Shown here: piece by piece, positions 50,621 to 61,055 of the stretch
Numbering within the stretch: the first letter of the stretch is position 1
Layout: every line of letters begins with the position of its first letter
Assembly: GCA_029213195.1 (NCBI GenBank)
Contig: JARGNI010000003.1
Span: 124,001-188,000, forward strand
Origin: Verrucomicrobiales bacterium
Lineage (GTDB): Bacteria > Verrucomicrobiota > Verrucomicrobiia > Verrucomicrobiales > DEV007
Length of the DNA stretch: 64,000 nt
Reading direction: 5' to 3'
The notes under the pieces: model-generated
Database searches by the model: none
Told to the model about the DNA's origin: nothing
Seen by the model: the letters and a program-made list of their open reading frames with translations, nothing else
Position numbers and translations under genes: made by a program

Positions 50621-50956
50621 TCAAATCTCGTAGGTCACCGCACTCTCCGCCTTGGCCCGGCGATTGAGCTTGTCGCAAACGAGATCACAGAGCTCGAAAA
50701 CCATGGGCTCACCGATGGCATAGAAAACCTGGTTTCCCTGCTGTTCCCGGGTCAGGAGCCCCGCTTCGTAGAGGGTTCGAAGCTGCTTGGAGACATTCGC
50801 CTGCGAAGTCGAAAGCGCTTCCACGATCTCGTTGACGGAGGATTTCCCTTTCCGGAGGTGCTGCAGGATGGCGAGCCGCGTGGGTTCAGCGAACACCTTG
50901 AAGAAAGCAGCCACTTTCTCCAAAGCTTGGGAATCGAGGGCAGTTTTGGCTGGCAT
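50621..50956 (-). CDS. ArsR/SmtB-family repressor
   Basis: 111 residues with the winged helix pattern FAEPTRLAILQHL, then SSVNEIVEALSTSQANVSKQ as the recognition region. Its only cysteines form a CDLVC pair in the last helix (FELCDLVCDKLN). That placement recalls the sulfide/persulfide sensors BigR and SqrR, but those also need a Cys in an earlier helix, which is absent. It is divergent from two YeeE/YedE-type genes, and a palindrome overlaps their leader. A role in sulfur sensing is inferred from context. Confidence 0.85.
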   Translation of the reverse strand: MPAKTALDSQALEKVAAFFKVFAEPTRLAILQHLRKGKSSVNEIVEALSTSQANVSKQLRTLYEAGLLTREQQGNQVFYAIGEPMVFELCDLVCDKLNRRAKAESAVTYEI

Positions 50957-51008
50957 CGATCCATCATACCTCAGAATAGACGAGAAACAAATTTAATTGA
51001 CTGTATAA

Positions 51009-51024
51009 CTATATGGTAATATAG
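51009..51024. promoter_or_regulatory. Palindromic operator candidate of the ArsR-type repressor
   Basis: The 16-bp sequence ctatat-ggta-atatag has perfect 6-bp arms and lies 8-23 bases before the first YeeE/YedE start, in the AT-rich gap between the divergent genes. ArsR-type operators are AT-rich palindromes in such positions. Confidence 0.55.
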
Positions 51025-51031
51025 ATACCTA

Positions 51032-51577
51032 ATGAAAGAGCAAAACTCCCTCTCTCTCCGTCAGCCGATCTGGAATCCCTTCTTTGTGGGTGCCGGGATC
51101 GGAATCCTCAGCTGGCTTGTCTTTCTTGTCGTCGACAAGCCACTCGGCATGTCGACCGAAGTCTCCAAGCTGTCCGGATGGGTCACCGCCGTATTCACCG
51201 GAATGGACTCGGTCGAATCCAACCCCTACTGGGCATCGAAGACACCGGCTTTCGGCTACAGCACGATTTTTCTCCTCACCACTGCCGTAGGTGCTTTTCT
51301 CAGCTCCCGGCTCGGTGGAACCTTCCGCATCGAGAAAGTCCCCAGCGTCTGGAAAGAATTCTACGGGGGAAGTGTCGCAAAACGCATGATCGCCGCCTTC
51401 GCCGGAGGAGCCATCCTTCTCTACGGGGCGAGAATGGCAGGCGGCTGCACCAGCGGTCACGGCATCAGCGGGACCCTGCAACTCGCCGCCTCCGGTTGGG
51501 TCTTCTTCCTCGCCATGTTTGCCTCCGGAATCGTGACGGCACGCCTTCTCTTCCGTTCTCCTCAGCAGAAATCCTGA
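51032..51577 (+). CDS. YeeE/YedE-family sulfur transporter half
   Basis: 181 residues, about four membrane helices. The diagnostic motif is GGCTSGHGISG, whose cysteine passes sulfur species in thiosulfate transporters of this family. In other bacteria paired small YeeE proteins (PmpA/PmpB-like) are regulated by BigR/SqrR-type ArsR proteins. The divergent ArsR gene and the following second half fit that picture. The second gene starts 34 bases downstream. Confidence 0.87.
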   Translation: MKEQNSLSLRQPIWNPFFVGAGIGILSWLVFLVVDKPLGMSTEVSKLSGWVTAVFTGMDSVESNPYWASKTPAFGYSTIFLLTTAVGAFLSSRLGGTFRIEKVPSVWKEFYGGSVAKRMIAAFAGGAILLYGARMAGGCTSGHGISGTLQLAASGWVFFLAMFASGIVTARLLFRSPQQKS

Positions 51578-51611
51578 ACCATCCCCTCTTCACCCTCCAT
51601 TTGATTTCGAT

Positions 51612-52187
51612 ATGAATACAATTCCTTTTTCTACCTCTTCGCCCACGGGATGGATTCTCGCGGCTGTCTTCGGACTGATCTTCGGCGTCCTTCTCCAGAA
51701 GGGCGGAGTCACCAACTACAACGTCATCGTAAACCTCTTCCGTTTCCGTGACTGGACCGTTCTCCGAATCATGCTCACCGCGATCCTCGTCGGAGGAATC
51801 GGCGTCTTCGGCATGATGCAGTTCGGCTGGCTCGAGGGATACCACATCAAGGATTTGAACTTGCCCGGGCTCCTCCTGGGTGGCTGCCTCTTCGGAATTG
51901 GAATGGTGCTCTACGGCTACTGTCCCGGGACCGGAGTGGCGGCTATCGCCACCGGCAGCGTTCATGCACTCGTCGGCTTTGGCGGCATGCTCTTCGGGGG
52001 CATTGCCTATGCCCTGAGCTACGGAGCTCTCAAGGAGTCTCTTTTTACCCACGGTGCGTTCGGAAAAGTTCGCCTCACGGAAACTCTTCCCCTTCCCGAA
52101 TGGACACTCTGGATCGTTCTGGTTGGCATATCCCTCCTGGTCTTCCGCCTCCTCCGAGGACCGAAGCTGCAGGAAGAGGCCAGCTGA
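51612..52187 (+). CDS. YeeE/YedE-family sulfur transporter, second half
   Basis: 191 residues with about five membrane helices. The family motif is seen as GGCLFGIGMVLYGYCPGTG, with two cysteines, and GVTNYNVIVNLFRFRDW near the start. It pairs with the preceding gene to form a bipartite transporter, probably for thiosulfate or another reduced sulfur species. The next gene is convergent, 22 bases away. No rhodanese or persulfide dioxygenase gene is in the window. Confidence 0.87.
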   Translation: MNTIPFSTSSPTGWILAAVFGLIFGVLLQKGGVTNYNVIVNLFRFRDWTVLRIMLTAILVGGIGVFGMMQFGWLEGYHIKDLNLPGLLLGGCLFGIGMVLYGYCPGTGVAAIATGSVHALVGFGGMLFGGIAYALSYGALKESLFTHGAFGKVRLTETLPLPEWTLWIVLVGISLLVFRLLRGPKLQEEAS

Positions 52188-53472: not shown

Positions 53473-53616
53473 GCGGTTACAACAACACAAAGAGGAAAAA
53501 GTTGCGACAAAGGATCGTGTTTTGTGCCTCAGAAACCCTAACTTTCCGCGCCGGGAAGGGTCGGAGATCCGACTTGAAAACGAATCCTGCTCATGAGAGC
53601 GTACCTCGCATTCTCG

Positions 53617-54450
53617 ATGAAAGGATTCAGGCTACAACTCGTCCTCTTGCTGCTGTCGGCTCTCGTGCTGACGGCTTGCCAGGTACCGAGTTCGGTCACC
53701 GTGGAATCTTCCTCGTCTCCCTTTCCCAAGGAGACACTCCCCGAGCCCTTCCGTCCACTCATCGTCGGTCTCGATGCGCCGACCTGGGACAACCAGGAGA
53801 AGACGATCAACTACTTCGGGTGGGATCGAAAAATCGACAACACCTACACCCGGATCAAGACCAGCGAGAAAGTGATCGCGATCACTTTCGACGATGGCCC
53901 TCACGGACAGAACACTCCGCGGCTTCTCGACATGCTCAAGAAGCGGAATATCAAGGCGACCTTCTACGTGGTCGGAAACATGGTGACCTACAACCCGCAG
54001 ATCCTTCGCCGCATGATCGCAGAAGGACACGAAATCGGAAATCACACCGTCAGCCACGGAAACCTCGCCCGCATGAGCAATTCGGCGCTGCGAACGGAGT
54101 TGCAGAAAGCCCACGATCAGATTTTGAAAGAAACCGGTATCGAACCGCGCACGATGCGCCCCCCTGGAGGAGCGATCACCCGGGATCAGAAGCAATTCAT
54201 GCTGGAGGAATTCGGCTATCCGACCATCCTCTGGTCGGTTGATCCGATGGACTGGAAAAAGCCCGGCCCCTCCGTCGTGACCCGCCGTCTTCTCGACGGC
54301 GCAGCCCCGGGTGGCATTCTCCTCGTGCACGACCTTCACAAGGCGACCGTGGATGCAATGCCGGCCACCCTCGATGGGCTGCTCGCCCAGGGATATCGTT
54401 TCGTCACCGTGACCGAACTCATCGCGATGGATGAGAGTGGGCAGGAGTAA
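53617..54450 (+). CDS. Polysaccharide deacetylase (NodB domain) lipoprotein
   Basis: 277 residues from the ATG at 53617, which directly precedes a lipoprotein signal (LQLVLLLLSALVLTAC); an ATG at 53593 is an alternative. The NodB domain shows TFDDGPHGQNTPRLLDML with the metal-binding Asp pair, the HTVSHGNLA histidines, the arginine in RPPGG, and ILLVHDLHKAT with the late catalytic histidine. It removes acetyl groups from GlcNAc or MurNAc polymers in the envelope. It is convergent with ptxE, 11 bases apart. Confidence 0.92.
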   Translation: MKGFRLQLVLLLLSALVLTACQVPSSVTVESSSSPFPKETLPEPFRPLIVGLDAPTWDNQEKTINYFGWDRKIDNTYTRIKTSEKVIAITFDDGPHGQNTPRLLDMLKKRNIKATFYVVGNMVTYNPQILRRMIAEGHEIGNHTVSHGNLARMSNSALRTELQKAHDQILKETGIEPRTMRPPGGAITRDQKQFMLEEFGYPTILWSVDPMDWKKPGPSVVTRRLLDGAAPGGILLVHDLHKATVDAMPATLDGLLAQGYRFVTVTELIAMDESGQE

Positions 54451-54461
54451 GGGATCGCTCG

Positions 54462-55328
54462 TCAGATTTTCATGGCGTATTCGCAGAACTTGCGAGCACA
54501 GCTCGTTTCCGGCAAATTGCTGGAGGTAATCAACTGAAGCCGTTTCTTTAATTTTATTCCTCGGAGATTCACCTGATAGAGCGACCCTGCTTCCAGTTCC
54601 TCTTTCACAGCGGAACGCAACACCAAAGACACGCCAAGCCCTGCCTTGACGCCTTCCTTGACCACCTCAGTGGAACCAAGCACCTGTGTGACCTTCAGCT
54701 TTCCTGCGATGGACCCGAAGCCCTCACTGATGACTCGACCCGTCCCCGTACCGGATTCTCCGCCAAGAAGATTCTCTTCCTCAAGCAGATCTGCCTGAAC
54801 GAGCCTGCGACCGGCCCACCGGTGTCCTGGGCCAACGATAAGAACAAGAGGTTCTTCACGCCAGATTTCGTTGTGGAACCTTCGACTTTCGGGATCCGCC
54901 TCATTCCACCATTCCATTGCAGCTACGTCAATTTCACCCTGTTGCAGCTTCTCAGCGACTTCGGGATTGGAAGCGATCGTCAGTTTCCCCTTAATCTCAC
55001 TCTCATTCATGAATTGGGCAAAGATCGGCTGAATGAGGTAGGTACCTACGTTGGACGATGCTCCCACTCGCAATTCATCGGAATGCAGGCTGAGACGGGC
55101 TCGCTCGGCGATTTCAATCAAGGTGCGGGCATGACGAACAAAGGCGACCGCACGATGGGTCGGAACGCAAACTGTCCCCCTCTCGATGAGACAGACCTCG
55201 AGTGATTGTTCCAACTTGCGAACATGCTGTGAAACCGCTGGCTGGGATATGCCCAGTTCCCTGGAGGCAGCTCCAAAACTCCCGGTATCGACAACGGCGA
55301 GAAAGCTCTTGAGCTGGGATAGATTCAT
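54462..55328 (-). CDS. ptxE: LysR-type regulator of the phosphite operon
   Basis: 288 residues with an N-terminal winged helix (MNLSQLKSFLAVVDTGSFGA, ISQPAVSQHVRKLE) and a ligand-binding domain of two alpha/beta halves (VGASSNVGTYLIQPI). It is the last gene of the operon and overlaps ptxD by four bases, as does the order in Pseudomonas stutzeri ptxABCDE, where ptxE encodes a LysR-type protein. It probably responds to phosphite or phosphate status. The general family is certain; the operon role is inferred from position. Confidence 0.87.
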   Translation of the reverse strand: MNLSQLKSFLAVVDTGSFGAASRELGISQPAVSQHVRKLEQSLEVCLIERGTVCVPTHRAVAFVRHARTLIEIAERARLSLHSDELRVGASSNVGTYLIQPIFAQFMNESEIKGKLTIASNPEVAEKLQQGEIDVAAMEWWNEADPESRRFHNEIWREEPLVLIVGPGHRWAGRRLVQADLLEEENLLGGESGTGTGRVISEGFGSIAGKLKVTQVLGSTEVVKEGVKAGLGVSLVLRSAVKEELEAGSLYQVNLRGIKLKKRLQLITSSNLPETSCARKFCEYAMKI

Positions 55329-56344
55329 GAAGGGAAGGATGAAGAAAGGACTTCCGGATTCAGCGCTTGCGAAGGAACCTCACCTTTGAAAAAGGCTTCC
55401 AGCTGAGAAGCTGCCTCAAGGGTGATTGCTCTTCTAATCTCGTCCACGGCCGATCCAAGATGAGGAGTAAAGAAGGTTTGGTCCTGATTGTCCAGAAGTC
55501 GAGTCGGAATGGAGCGCGGGCGGTCTGCCAGTGCCCAGTCCTCCATTTCGAACACATCAGCGGCGTAGGCTCCCAGGTGGCCCTTCGTAAGCGAATCGGC
55601 AACCGCTTCCTCATCGACAACGGACCCCCGACAGACGTTGACTAGGATGGCACCCGGGGGCATTCGCTCAAGAAACCCGCGGTCGACGAGATGACGGGTC
55701 GCCGGAATGAGAGGAAGGAAAAGAGTGAGGATGTCAGACTCAGTCGCCACCGTTTCCAGATCGACCAGTTCGGCCCCGAGTTCAGCGGCAACGGACTCCT
55801 TGGCAGGATCTGGATCCATCGCCAGAATACGACAGTCGAATCCGCTCAACCGTCGAGCGAAGGCCTGGCCAACCGCACCAAAACCAACCAATCCGATGGT
55901 CTTTCCGGCAAGACCCGTGCCGTAGAGCACCGGACGCCATCCCTGGAACGTTCCGCTGCGCACAAGACGATCTCCGGCGACACATTTCCGAGCCACTCCA
56001 AGCAACAGTGCCATGGCAAGCTCTGCTGTAGGTGCCGTGAGGAGATCGGGGACGTTGGTAAAAAGAACACGGTTCTCAGAGCAGGCTTCGACATCGAAGT
56101 TGTCATAGCCCTTCAGCGCACCAGCGATGATGCGAAGGCGCTCGCATTGATTGAGAAAGAGGTGATCCACCGCATCCGGCATGAAAACGAGCAACCCGTC
56201 TGCGTCACGACAATGCCGCATCAGGATTTCCCGGGGAAAGGACTCCCGCGTACGATTCGTCACCGGCTCACAAAAGGACTCGAGAAACTCAACGACCTCG
56301 CGGTGAACCCAGTGGGTCACCACAACCTTTGGTTTTCGGCTCAT
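55325..56344 (-). CDS. ptxD: Phosphite (phosphonate) dehydrogenase
   Basis: 339 residues from the ATG at 56344. Among 2-hydroxyacid dehydrogenases it specifically shares PtxD stretches: ALKGYDNFDVEAC, PDLLTAPTAELA, FQGWRPVLYGTGL, CRGSVVDE, YAADVFEMEDWALADRPR and TPHLGSAV. Residues matching the known phosphite site are all present: Met55, Lys78, Thr103, Trp136, Tyr141, Arg239, Glu268, His295 and Ser298. The NAD motif is GLVGFGAVGQAF with Asp177 after the second strand, favouring NAD over NADP. It oxidises phosphite to phosphate with NADH formation. It starts 13 bases after the permease stop. Confidence 0.95.
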   Translation of the reverse strand: MSRKPKVVVTHWVHREVVEFLESFCEPVTNRTRESFPREILMRHCRDADGLLVFMPDAVDHLFLNQCERLRIIAGALKGYDNFDVEACSENRVLFTNVPDLLTAPTAELAMALLLGVARKCVAGDRLVRSGTFQGWRPVLYGTGLAGKTIGLVGFGAVGQAFARRLSGFDCRILAMDPDPAKESVAAELGAELVDLETVATESDILTLFLPLIPATRHLVDRGFLERMPPGAILVNVCRGSVVDEEAVADSLTKGHLGAYAADVFEMEDWALADRPRSIPTRLLDNQDQTFFTPHLGSAVDEIRRAITLEAASQLEAFFKGEVPSQALNPEVLSSSFPS

Positions 56345-56357
56345 AAGAAGTCTAAGC

Positions 56358-57167
56358 CTACTTGAAGCGACGCCGCAAGAGAGCTCCGGTTCCATCGACA
56401 ATCATGACCATGGCGAGGATCACCAGAATGATGGCGAACATCTCGTCGTAGCGAAGAATGCGAAGAGCTCCAATAAGCTGGAATCCGATTCCACCCGCTC
56501 CCACGATCCCCAGCAAAGTTGAAGCGCGGAAGTTGTACTCCCAGCGATAAAATGCCGTGTCTGCCATCTGCGGAACGACCTGGGGAAGGTATCCATGGAT
56601 GATCGTCTGGAATCGATTCGCGCCCGTGCTTTCCACAGCTTCCACTGGCCGCGGATCGACATGCTCGATGGATTCCGCAAAGAACTTACCCACCATACCG
56701 ATCGAGTGAATCCCCAGGGCGAGAGCTCCCGGCAACACACCGAAACCTACGGCTGCCACGAGAACGATTCCAAGAATCAGCTCCGGAACGGCACGGGTCA
56801 GGTTCAGGATCCCGCGGGCAACCTGATAGACGACGGGGTGCGGGGTGGTATTCTGCGCAGCAAGGAATCCGATCGGAACCGAAAAGACAATCGCGAGCGC
56901 GGTCCCCCCAATACTCATCCCGAGCGTGTCGACGAGCGGCATGATCCATTCTTTCCAGTTTGAAAAGTCCGGAGGCAGCATCTCCAGGAAAAGACTCCCC
57001 ATATCGGGCATGCCTTCCCAAAGCCTGGCGAAATCGAAAAGGTCGACATACCAGCAAGCCGACACGACGACGGCGAGCACGAGTCCTACTTCGAGGTAGT
57101 TGCGGCGACGCTGCCGGACCTCTCGATCCAGCAGCGTCCCGTAGTTTGCAGGAGAAGCATTCTCCAT
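56358..57167 (-). CDS. ptxC: Phosphite ABC transporter permease
   Basis: 269 residues with six membrane helices, homologous to PhnE. The EAA loop that docks with the ATPase is EAVESTGANRFQTIIHGYLP. Other conserved parts are VDTLGMSIGGTALAI and RAVPELILGIV. It starts 22 bases after the stop of the binding protein gene. PhnE-like permeases also serve phosphonates; the phosphite assignment comes from linkage to ptxD. Confidence 0.9.
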   Translation of the reverse strand: MENASPANYGTLLDREVRQRRRNYLEVGLVLAVVVSACWYVDLFDFARLWEGMPDMGSLFLEMLPPDFSNWKEWIMPLVDTLGMSIGGTALAIVFSVPIGFLAAQNTTPHPVVYQVARGILNLTRAVPELILGIVLVAAVGFGVLPGALALGIHSIGMVGKFFAESIEHVDPRPVEAVESTGANRFQTIIHGYLPQVVPQMADTAFYRWEYNFRASTLLGIVGAGGIGFQLIGALRILRYDEMFAIILVILAMVMIVDGTGALLRRRFK

Positions 57168-57189
57168 AAGTTGATGATTCCGTCCGGAA

Positions 57190-58038
57190 TTAATCCAGGA
57201 TTGCCGTGAGCTTCCTCACCTTGTCGTAGTCCTCGTCCTTCGCTTCTGCAAATCCGTCTGCCTTGAGCTTTCCGAGGATATCCTCGTCCTTGAGGCTGTA
57301 GAAGGCATTGCGGATTTTCTCCTGAAGCTCTGGATCGAGGTACCCCTGCATCGTCCACGGATAGTTGGGATACGCGGGAGATACCTCAAGAACCACAACC
57401 TTCTTCGGATCGATAGTCCCCTTCTTCACGAGAGCCTCGTAGATCGGTTGGCTCATGCCGCCGACCTGGGCATTTCCATTTTGAACTGCAAGCGCAACCG
57501 CATCATGCGATCCCAGGAACTGCTCCTCGTAGTCCTTTCCGGCCTCGAGTTTGCGGTCGAGGAGGAGGGATTTTGGAATAAGGTGACTGGAGGTAGAAGC
57601 CTGGTCACCATAGGCCATTGTCTTTCCCTTCACATCTTCAGGCTTCTTCATCCCTGCTTCTGCGTTCCCGATAAATATACTGTGATACGTTGCCGAACCG
57701 TTTTTCATCTGGGCCGCAAACGGAACGAGTTCGGGACTTTTGTCCTTCGCAAGAACGTAAGAGAGCGGACCAAAGTAGCCGAGTTCGAGACGCCCGCGAC
57801 GCATGGCCTCAATCATGGAAGAGTAGTCAGTGGTGACCACGAGCTCGACCTTCTTTCCCAGTTTCGACTCAAGATACTTCTTGAGACCATCGTTTGCCTT
57901 GATGATCGTGGACGCATTTTCGTCGGGGAGGAGAGCAACGCGAAGGATCTCAGGATTGCTCTTTTCGTCTGCCTGGGCCGTCTGGACCAGTGTGAATGCT
58001 GCGACGAGGGCAGCGGCTACGTAATGTAGGTGCTTCAT
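57190..58038 (-). CDS. ptxB: Phosphite ABC transporter periplasmic binding protein
   Basis: 282 residues with a signal peptide (MKHLHYVAAALVAAFTLVQT). It is of the PhnD/PtxB type: LRVALLPDENASTIIKAN, MRRGRLELGYFGPLSYVLA, TYHSIFIGNAEAG and GDQASTSSHLIPKSLLL, whose serine and threonine residues form the anion pocket. The gene lies between ATPase and permease. Substrate preference between phosphite, hypophosphite and methylphosphonate cannot be read from sequence with certainty; the adjacent ptxD favours phosphite. Confidence 0.92.
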   Translation of the reverse strand: MKHLHYVAAALVAAFTLVQTAQADEKSNPEILRVALLPDENASTIIKANDGLKKYLESKLGKKVELVVTTDYSSMIEAMRRGRLELGYFGPLSYVLAKDKSPELVPFAAQMKNGSATYHSIFIGNAEAGMKKPEDVKGKTMAYGDQASTSSHLIPKSLLLDRKLEAGKDYEEQFLGSHDAVALAVQNGNAQVGGMSQPIYEALVKKGTIDPKKVVVLEVSPAYPNYPWTMQGYLDPELQEKIRNAFYSLKDEDILGKLKADGFAEAKDEDYDKVRKLTAILD

Positions 58039-58072
58039 TTTATTAATGTGTTTGTGGGTGGGTTAGGAAAAT

Positions 58073-58921
58073 TCAGACAGTTCGTGCTACAGGCCATTGT
58101 TCTTGCGTCGTATGATCCGGCGTGGCTGATGGATCTTCAGCTTCTGCATCGGGGGCCTTACCTTCTCCTTCGTAGATGGAATCGATCGCGCTCTCGTCCA
58201 ACTTCTCGGCAACATCATCGAAAACGACATCCCCCTTCGCCAAGGCAATCACCCGATCACCAAACTCTCTCGCATATTCGACCTGGTGAAGACTGATCAC
58301 GAGAGTGATCCCGTCGCGGCGACAAATTTCTCGAAGCAAAGTCAGGAGCTGCCGTGAGGTGGCCGGATCCAGGCTCGCTACCGGCTCATCGGCGAGAACC
58401 AAGGTGGGTTCCATTGCCAGTGCCCGAGCCACTCCCACCCGCTGTTGTTGTCCTCCGCTGAGTTGGTCGACCCGCTGGAGCGCCTTGTCGAGCATTCCGA
58501 CACGATCAAGACAATTAAGGGCCAGCTCGCGATCTTCCCGGGGCAGCGAGAAGAGCGACCGCAAAGTTCCAAAGCGCGATATGCGACCCGCCAGCACATT
58601 GGTCAATGCGGTCTGGCGACCGATCAGCTGATGCTGCTGGAAAACCATGCCTGTTCGCCGACGGTGCTGGCGAACTAGTCGCCCATTGCCGAGTTCCCCC
58701 AGTTGCGGGCAGATCACAGCCCCGTCGGTGGGCTGAACGAGAAGATTCATGGCACGCAACAGCGTTGACTTCCCGGCTCCAGATCTCCCAAGCAGAACCG
58801 TGACCTCTCCTTTTCGAATTTCGATATCCTGCGGAAGAAGGGCTCGAACTCCACCCGGATAGGTGACTCCAACCCCTTTCAATCTCAAGACTTCAGGCTG
58901 AGAGGAGATTCCTTCATTCAT
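58073..58921 (-). CDS. ptxA: Phosphite ABC transporter ATPase
   Basis: 282 residues of the PhnC type: Walker A GRSGAGKSTLLRAMN, Q-loop VFQQHQLIGRQ, signature LSGGQQQRVGVARAL, Walker B TLVLADEPVASLD and switch ISLHQVEYA. The last 45 residues are an acidic, probably disordered extension not needed for the fold. It is the first gene of the operon, with a TATAAT promoter about 40 bases upstream of its ATG. It gives energy for uptake through ptxC. Confidence 0.92.
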   Translation of the reverse strand: MNEGISSQPEVLRLKGVGVTYPGGVRALLPQDIEIRKGEVTVLLGRSGAGKSTLLRAMNLLVQPTDGAVICPQLGELGNGRLVRQHRRRTGMVFQQHQLIGRQTALTNVLAGRISRFGTLRSLFSLPREDRELALNCLDRVGMLDKALQRVDQLSGGQQQRVGVARALAMEPTLVLADEPVASLDPATSRQLLTLLREICRRDGITLVISLHQVEYAREFGDRVIALAKGDVVFDDVAEKLDESAIDSIYEGEGKAPDAEAEDPSATPDHTTQEQWPVARTV

Positions 58922-58974: not shown

Positions 58975-59207
58975 AAGAACAACACCGAACCTTGGTTAAG
59001 AAATCGTGACCCGCATCGGTGTGATTTTTTCGTCACGAGTCGGGTTGATTCGTCCCCCTCAAGTCCACCGTTCTCTGCCAGTCCAAAACCGAACAGGACT
59101 TCAGGCCTGACCACCCGGAACAGGATAAAGCGAACACACGTCTATCAGCGGTGACGTATCACGAATTCGCTTGCTCAAAAGTTCAGGTGCCGCGAACGGA
59201 AGCAGAG

Positions 59208-61055
59208 ATGACCTCCACTCTGCTTACGGCATTCTGCCTCGGACTGATCAGTGCCTGTTCACTTCCCCTGGGCGCGCTGACATCAAAGATTTGGCGTCCG
59301 AATGACCGGGTCATCGCTTTTCTCATGGCTTTCGGGGGAGGAGCCCTGCTCGCCGCCCTGACGATCGACCTCGCGGGTCCGGCTCTCGCCAAGGGCCATT
59401 TCTACTGGCTTGCTGGAGGCTGCATCCTCGGTGGCGTGCTCTTCGTCGTGCTCGACCAGGTCGTGAACCAGCATGGCGGCTTTCTCCGAAAGGTCTCGAC
59501 GACGGTTTTCTATCTTCGTCGGCAAGAGACCCGAAGGCTCCGGAAAATGATCTCGCGACTACGTCGACTGAGCCTGTTCTCTGACTTGCCAGCGGCAGAT
59601 ACGACCAAGGTGGTCGCGGCCCTGAAATCTCATCCCATCCGGAAAGGAGAAACCCTTTTCCGAGAGGGCGATGAAAGCGGATGCATGTTCCTCATCGAGG
59701 ATGGGACGGTAGAATTGCTGGATCCCAAGGATGGGATGAAACCCCTCCTGAAGCTGAAAAAGGAAGACTCCTTTGGTCACTATGCCTTTCTCACCAATTC
59801 CCGCCACGCTGCCGTGGCCAAAGCAATCAGTGACGGGCGGGTGCTCATCCTGCCCCGCACTTCTTTCGAACGGATTGTCACCGAGAGCGATGAAGTCCAG
59901 CATCACTTTGCCGAATTCCTTCGCGACCCCGAAGTCACCCGCTACCTGACAGAACGCCAAGAAATGGTAGCTCCAGACGTCGAAACATGGCGAGAGAAAG
60001 CCATCACTTCGGTGCTCGAAGGTCGACGCCCCCCCATTCCCACGGGAGAAGCGCCGGAGGAACCCGACCTCCGCGAGGTGCTGGAACAGGTCAGCCGGAT
60101 TCCCATTTTTCACGGCCTCCCCGACGAAGACATCGAGTTTCTCGCCAACTGCTGCTTCAGCAAAAGCCACGCCCGAGGGCATACGTTTTTTCATAGGGGA
60201 GAACCGGCCGATCGGCTCCATATTCTCGAGGCCGGCCAGGTCGTAATGCTCGACCCCAAGGCGCCCGATCGAAGCCCTCTTCGGCTCGATGCCATCGATG
60301 AGTTTGGGGCGCTTTCTTTCCTGACCGGAGCCAAGCACTCAGTTTCTGCAGTCGCCTCCTCCGATGTCACAGTGCGTGTCCTACTTCGTCGGCACTTTGA
60401 CGCGCTCATGGAACGCTCTCCCGCCTTTGCCTCCGCCGTGGAGGAATTCATTCACAAGGAAACTCTCGCCGAGTATCTGCAGAAAAAGCATCGGTTCGAT
60501 ACCGACAAGACCGCTCGCTGGGTTTCGCGAGCACTCGGGCGGGCCAGTGGTCGCAGCCTCCTTCCGTCCGCCTCCCGGATGACCCGGGAGATCCAGCAGC
60601 ACGGGGGTGCTCCCCTCGCGATCTGGCTGGGAATTCTTCTCGATGGCATTCCTGAATCTCTTGTCATCGGTGCCAGCGTCGGGGCCAAGGGAATCGTCAG
60701 CACCTCGCTCATCGCGGGACTCTTCCTCTCCAATTTTCCCGAAGCCCTCTCCAGTTCCGTGGGGATGCGCCAGCAGGGAATGAATTTCCGCCGGATCTTC
60801 GTCATGTGGACCTCCCTGATGTTTCTCACCGGAATCGGGGCCGCCCTCGGCGTGGTGTTCTTTGCGGGTGCACCACCGGTTCTCTATTCGCTGATCGAAG
60901 GGGTCGCGGCAGGAGCCATGCTGACCATGATCGCCCAGACCATGCTACCGGAGGCCTATTTCAAGGGCGGATCGATCACTGGATTTGCCACTCTCCTGGG
61001 GTTCCTCGCGGCGATCTTTTTCAAGACACTCGAAGGATCCGGAGGAGGGCACTGA
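59208..61055 (+). CDS. ZIP-type metal transporter with two inserted cNMP-binding-like domains
   Basis: 615 residues from the ATG at 59208. The first 85 residues hold three membrane helices of a ZIP transporter (AFGGGALLAALTIDLAGPAL). Two cyclic-nucleotide-binding-like domains follow (about 121-240, RLSLFSDLPAAD; and 296-420, RIPIFHGLPDED). Helices four to eight resume at about 470 with GILLDGIPESLVIGAS and FLSNFPEALSSSVGM, the positions of the ZIP metal site. The loop between helices 3 and 4 is cytosolic in ZIP proteins, so the domains would sense the cytosol. Their phosphate-binding loops (FGHYAFL, FGALSFL) lack the usual FGE glutamate, so cAMP binding is doubtful. Confidence 0.82.
   Translation: MTSTLLTAFCLGLISACSLPLGALTSKIWRPNDRVIAFLMAFGGGALLAALTIDLAGPALAKGHFYWLAGGCILGGVLFVVLDQVVNQHGGFLRKVSTTVFYLRRQETRRLRKMISRLRRLSLFSDLPAADTTKVVAALKSHPIRKGETLFREGDESGCMFLIEDGTVELLDPKDGMKPLLKLKKEDSFGHYAFLTNSRHAAVAKAISDGRVLILPRTSFERIVTESDEVQHHFAEFLRDPEVTRYLTERQEMVAPDVETWREKAITSVLEGRRPPIPTGEAPEEPDLREVLEQVSRIPIFHGLPDEDIEFLANCCFSKSHARGHTFFHRGEPADRLHILEAGQVVMLDPKAPDRSPLRLDAIDEFGALSFLTGAKHSVSAVASSDVTVRVLLRRHFDALMERSPAFASAVEEFIHKETLAEYLQKKHRFDTDKTARWVSRALGRASGRSLLPSASRMTREIQQHGGAPLAIWLGILLDGIPESLVIGASVGAKGIVSTSLIAGLFLSNFPEALSSSVGMRQQGMNFRRIFVMWTSLMFLTGIGAALGVVFFAGAPPVLYSLIEGVAAGAMLTMIAQTMLPEAYFKGGSITGFATLLGFLAAIFFKTLEGSGGGH

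Follow-up and report, generated by a model that had tools for sequence, protein, structure and literature searches.

The ptx locus and its surroundings

In this work, we have analysed a 64,000-nt stretch of Verrucomicrobiales DNA (the window), which belongs to a host genome of 5.9 Mb in 115 contigs. Five genes on its minus strand, at 54462-58921, form a ptxABCDE operon (Table 1), transcribed in the order ptxA, ptxB, ptxC, ptxD and ptxE, with the LysR gene overlapping ptxD by 4 bases. This anatomy is read directly from the DNA and bears out the first-pass annotation, which had claimed five same-strand genes in the order of the known operon. The spacing that it gave (34, 22 and 13 bases between successive genes, then an overlap of 4) is right if ptxD starts at the ATG at 56344; a longer frame with a TTG start opens at 56401.

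Table 1. Features of the ptx locus and its neighbours (window coordinates).
Feature	Coordinates	Strand	Basis
ptxA, predicted ATP-binding subunit of a phosphite ABC importer (PhnC-type)	58073..58921	-	TIGR02315
ptxB, predicted periplasmic phosphite-binding protein	57190..58038	-	5JVB match and nine pocket residues
ptxC, predicted importer permease (PhnE-type)	56358..57167	-	TIGR01097
ptxD, predicted NAD-dependent phosphite dehydrogenase, 339 aa	55325..56344	-	PDB 6IH2 match, residues, tree
ptxE, predicted LysR-type regulator	54462..55328	-	Pfam HTH_1 and LysR_substrate
Candidate regulatory block upstream of ptxA, GTGACGAAA..TCAC..GATTTCTTAACCAAGG	58977..59036	-	Conserved with the congener locus L002
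Polysaccharide deacetylase adjoining the operon	53593-54450	+	32/34 members of the genus have close homologues, often two
ZIP-family metal transporter	59151-61055	+	Pfam: two cyclic-nucleotide-binding domain matches ahead of a C-terminal ZIP match

Against curated NCBIfam profiles, the ptxA product scored 290 bits with TIGR02315 (PhnC; cut-off 266), the ptxC product 302 bits with TIGR01097 (PhnE; cut-off 217) and the ptxB product 244 bits with TIGR01098 (phosphate/phosphite/phosphonate-binding; cut-off 112). PtxD and the LysR gene matched general or sub-cut-off families only, and the NCBIfam search returned no PtxD-specific model among the profile matches of PtxD. The Pfam assignments agree with the profile-based ones for the operon.

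The neighbouring genes told little about the insertion history: the deacetylase is genus-wide, strong relatives of the ZIP protein occur in only 3 of 34 genus genomes (host included), and in the regions examined neither has a second window neighbour beside it. The domain layout of the ZIP protein looks unusual. Elsewhere in the window (50621-52187), an ArsR-type regulator is divergent from a pair of Sulf_transp (YeeE/YedE-type) half-proteins, a layout for the transport of sulfur compounds. A further cluster in the host genome (L111, 2322-9421, C21) comprises, on one strand, selA, the gene of a substrate-binding protein that exceeds the cut-off of TIGR04553 (a putative selenate transporter model), two genes of permease-like proteins and finally selB, which suggests selenium uptake and selenocysteine use.

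Upstream of ptxA, 56-115 bases from its start, lies a block of about 60 nt that is shared with a congener carrying the same operon. Its local alignment between the two loci scores 38, against a maximum of 29 in 1000 dinucleotide shuffles, and a search of the whole host genome that tolerated up to one mismatch finds its core, GATTTCTTAACNAAGG, at this site only. From this comparison of two species, we regard the block as a candidate operator for PtxE, or else a candidate promoter element. Promoter and terminator scans gave results near chance, Rfam gave no family above threshold for the 64-kb window, and the host's matches to PhoB-type regulators are all below the curated cut-off.

Diagnostic residues of PtxD and PtxB

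The closest solved structures to PtxD are phosphite dehydrogenases, with PDB 6IH2, the Ralstonia sp. 4506 enzyme, first (E 2e-110), and variants of the Pseudomonas stutzeri WM88 enzyme at E ~1e-92; the next family is glyoxylate reductase (E 2e-63). Identity to these crystallised enzymes, which have been assayed, is only ~51% (Ralstonia) and ~48% (WM88), a point against the assimilatory reading of the operon. The residue alignment shows M53, L75, K76, L100, W134, Y139, R237, E266, H292, S295 and R301 (WM88 numbering) all kept, and identical to both solved phosphite dehydrogenases. The catalytic set (K76, R237, E266 and H292) is intact, and D and P occupy positions 175/176, a pair shared with the Ralstonia enzyme that would fit the use of NAD. 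The further residues R301, Y139 and S295, also present here, have roles in PtxD described in PMC6303947, where R301 is reported to be invariant among PtxD homologues and not in the rest of the superfamily. The earlier claims that all recognised active-site residues are retained, and that the protein has three quoted motifs, hold in the alignment and in the translation, respectively. Across our PtxD alignment, Arg replaces the catalytic Lys76 in 12 of the 87 rows; the window protein keeps Lys.

In a 74-row tree, a branch with an SH-aLRT support of 99 separates all PtxDs, that of the window among them, from the remaining 2-hydroxyacid dehydrogenases, although this outgroup consists of five rows with very long branches. 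The outcome that would have spoken against the original annotation, a grouping with glycerate or phosphoglycerate dehydrogenases, is therefore not what the tree gives.

The best PDB match of the ptxB product is Te_PtxB (5JVB, E 4e-94). PMC5700983 names L20, D22, Y55, Y100, S130, T131, S132, H160 and Y208 in the Te_PtxB-phosphite structure, and the window PtxB is identical at 9/9 (L37, D39, Y72, Y118, S148, T149, S150, H178 and Y226), so that the capping Tyr with its Asp, the STS-H motif and the two further pocket Tyr are all present. According to the same paper, mutation of the capping Tyr in Te_PtxB makes phosphite binding 2-3 orders of magnitude weaker. This Tyr and its partner Asp set phosphite binders apart from PhnD of E. 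coli, in which the two positions are Asp and Thr.

Two other kinds of system were met among the loci compared. In L038, L044, L058, L062 and L075 (mostly betaproteobacterial), ptxD is divergent from ptxABC, a distinct operon layout, and PtxB is ~48% identical to that of the window yet has a complete phosphite pocket. In L072, L073 and L074, ptxD lies beside transporters whose binding-protein pocket pattern is ARWYNTSFD; since four of its residues (W, N, F, D) agree with the HtxB changes reported in PMC5700983, these three may be hypophosphite-type systems.

Proposed function and its alternatives

The phosphite operon first proposed for this locus agrees with the profile and solved-structure matches, with the residues of the catalytic site and the binding pocket, and with the gene order and the trees. 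We propose that it is very probably a complete assimilatory system, in which ptxABC would import phosphite and PtxD would oxidize it to phosphate as a phosphorus source. Periplasmic phosphite would be captured by PtxB and brought in with ATP by PtxC and PtxA, and cytoplasmic PtxD would convert phosphite and NAD+ to phosphate and NADH, thereby supplying phosphorus. High-affinity import coupled to NAD-dependent oxidation is thus the likely role of the operon; the catalytic activity and substrate of PtxD, like the regulation of the operon, we infer from characterised homologues. Control of the operon probably falls to PtxE, the LysR protein, perhaps via the conserved upstream block.

A dissimilatory pathway, in which PtxD would pass phosphite electrons to energy metabolism, also has to be weighed, since PtxD and a PtxE-type regulator are known from both kinds of pathway (PMC11933879). 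We consider it very unlikely. The dedicated importer is present, and ptxABC is the hallmark that distinguishes assimilatory from dissimilatory systems (PMC11933879); moreover, the operon is flanked by the deacetylase and the ZIP-family transporter, and profile and Pfam searches placed the neighbouring genes in families other than those of a ptdCFGHI cluster beside ptxDE.

Even less credible is a phosphonate importer that happens to stand beside a 2-hydroxyacid dehydrogenase of the glyoxylate/hydroxypyruvate type. It is true that the ptxA and ptxC products match phosphonate-transporter models and that the NCBIfam matches of PtxD are glyoxylate reductase and similar families, below their cut-offs. 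Against this, PtxB has retained the capping Tyr and its Asp, which are specific to phosphite binding and are replaced by D and T in PhnD of E. coli, and PtxD keeps M53, Y139 and R301, all of which are changed in three compared 2-hydroxyacid dehydrogenases, two of them from the host genome. The position of PtxD in the tree also speaks against this reading, and PhnJ was not found in the host genome.

That the operon sits on a contaminant or misbinned contig of non-verrucomicrobial origin might be suspected from an assembly in 115 contigs, possibly a MAG, and from the rarity of ptx in the host family, but we give this almost no credence, as the operon is embedded in a contig that is at least 188 kb long and has a GC content near that of its surroundings, 32 of the 34 genomes of the genus have the adjoining deacetylase, and the congener's copy of the operon shows protein identities of 63-87%.

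Distribution, ancestry and comparison with known ptx systems

The host, described at first as a likely PVC bacterium, does belong to the Verrucomicrobiales, and a genome of the same genus, also named Verrucomicrobiales bacterium, has the same operon. The initial framing placed the experimentally studied ptx systems mainly in Proteobacteria and some cyanobacteria; the rarity elsewhere that it implied is overstated for sequence data. In most of 80 PtxD-bearing loci retrieved from public genomes ptxABC adjoins ptxD, and loci with both occur in Cyanobacteriota, Pseudomonadota, Nitrospirota, Thermodesulfobacteriota and Myxococcota, as well as in other Verrucomicrobiota, including an Opitutales MAG. 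The gene order of the window recurs in many of these genomes. Relatives of PtxD are also common on plasmids (700 records). Within the host group ptxD is accessory, as ptx is present in 2 of 75 genomes of the family and 3 of 388 genomes drawn evenly across the phylum. The GC content of the ptx genes is 0.53-0.57, close to the 0.57 of the whole window, and thus gives no compositional sign of recent import.

Five Verrucomicrobiota sets (the window, L002, the Opitutales MAG and two further genomes of the phylum) fall on one side of a branch in a quick unrooted tree of concatenated PtxABC, with support of 98. The PtxDs of the same five form one group (support 97) in a quick unrooted tree from which distant outgroups were left out, and split into two groups in the quick 74-row tree that includes them. 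As these are quick trees, and both the PtxABC and the outgroup-free PtxD trees are unrooted, common ancestry of ptx within the phylum is plausible and not established. We tentatively suggest, with slightly less than even confidence, a long-standing Verrucomicrobiota ptxABCDE lineage that few species keep, that has moved or been lost within the phylum in place of repeated recent imports, and that would have its own operator in the window's genus.

The phosphite operon itself is known and widespread, and the modest novelty is the lineage that Verrucomicrobiota would have of their own. New here are the Verrucomicrobiota grouping of PtxABC, and of PtxD in the tree without distant outgroups, and the conserved block upstream of ptxA as a candidate operator. 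We found no description of phosphite oxidation genes in Verrucomicrobiota in the open-access literature, subscription papers lying mostly outside the search; two papers name both ptxD and the phylum, but the passages concerned deal with other matters. The range of bacteria known to carry all the genes for drawing phosphorus from phosphite now includes Verrucomicrobiota, and our results suggest that their version is a distinct lineage. This bears on the extent of reduced-phosphorus use and on efforts to date ptxD or map its occurrence, while leaving the pathway unchanged.

One of the closest known systems is that of the congener (L002, G030:C20, JARGOP010000004.1), with a complete operon in the same order and the shared upstream block. 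Identities to the window are 74% for PtxA, 87% for PtxC, ~68-69% for PtxD and 63% for PtxE. Its flanking genes, in contrast, are unlike those of the window, and the homologues of the window deacetylase in that genome lie on other contigs. Trichodesmium PtxB (5JVB) shares the nine pocket residues, including Leu20 and Tyr208, although its host is cyanobacterial and its overall sequence has diverged. Similarly, Ralstonia sp. 4506 PtxD (6IH2) is 51% identical over 327 residues and shares the cofactor-specificity positions D175/P176, but occupies a branch of its own in the PtxD tree. The operon annotated on a P. aeruginosa plasmid (L107) has the gene order of the window, a PtxD nearly identical to that of WM88, and beside it a LysR gene whose product is 45% identical to the window PtxE. 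Finally, the P. stutzeri WM88 ptxABCDE operon has the same five genes in the same order, the same active-site residues and a LysR gene that likewise overlaps ptxD, although it belongs to a different phylum and its PtxD is 48% identical to ours.
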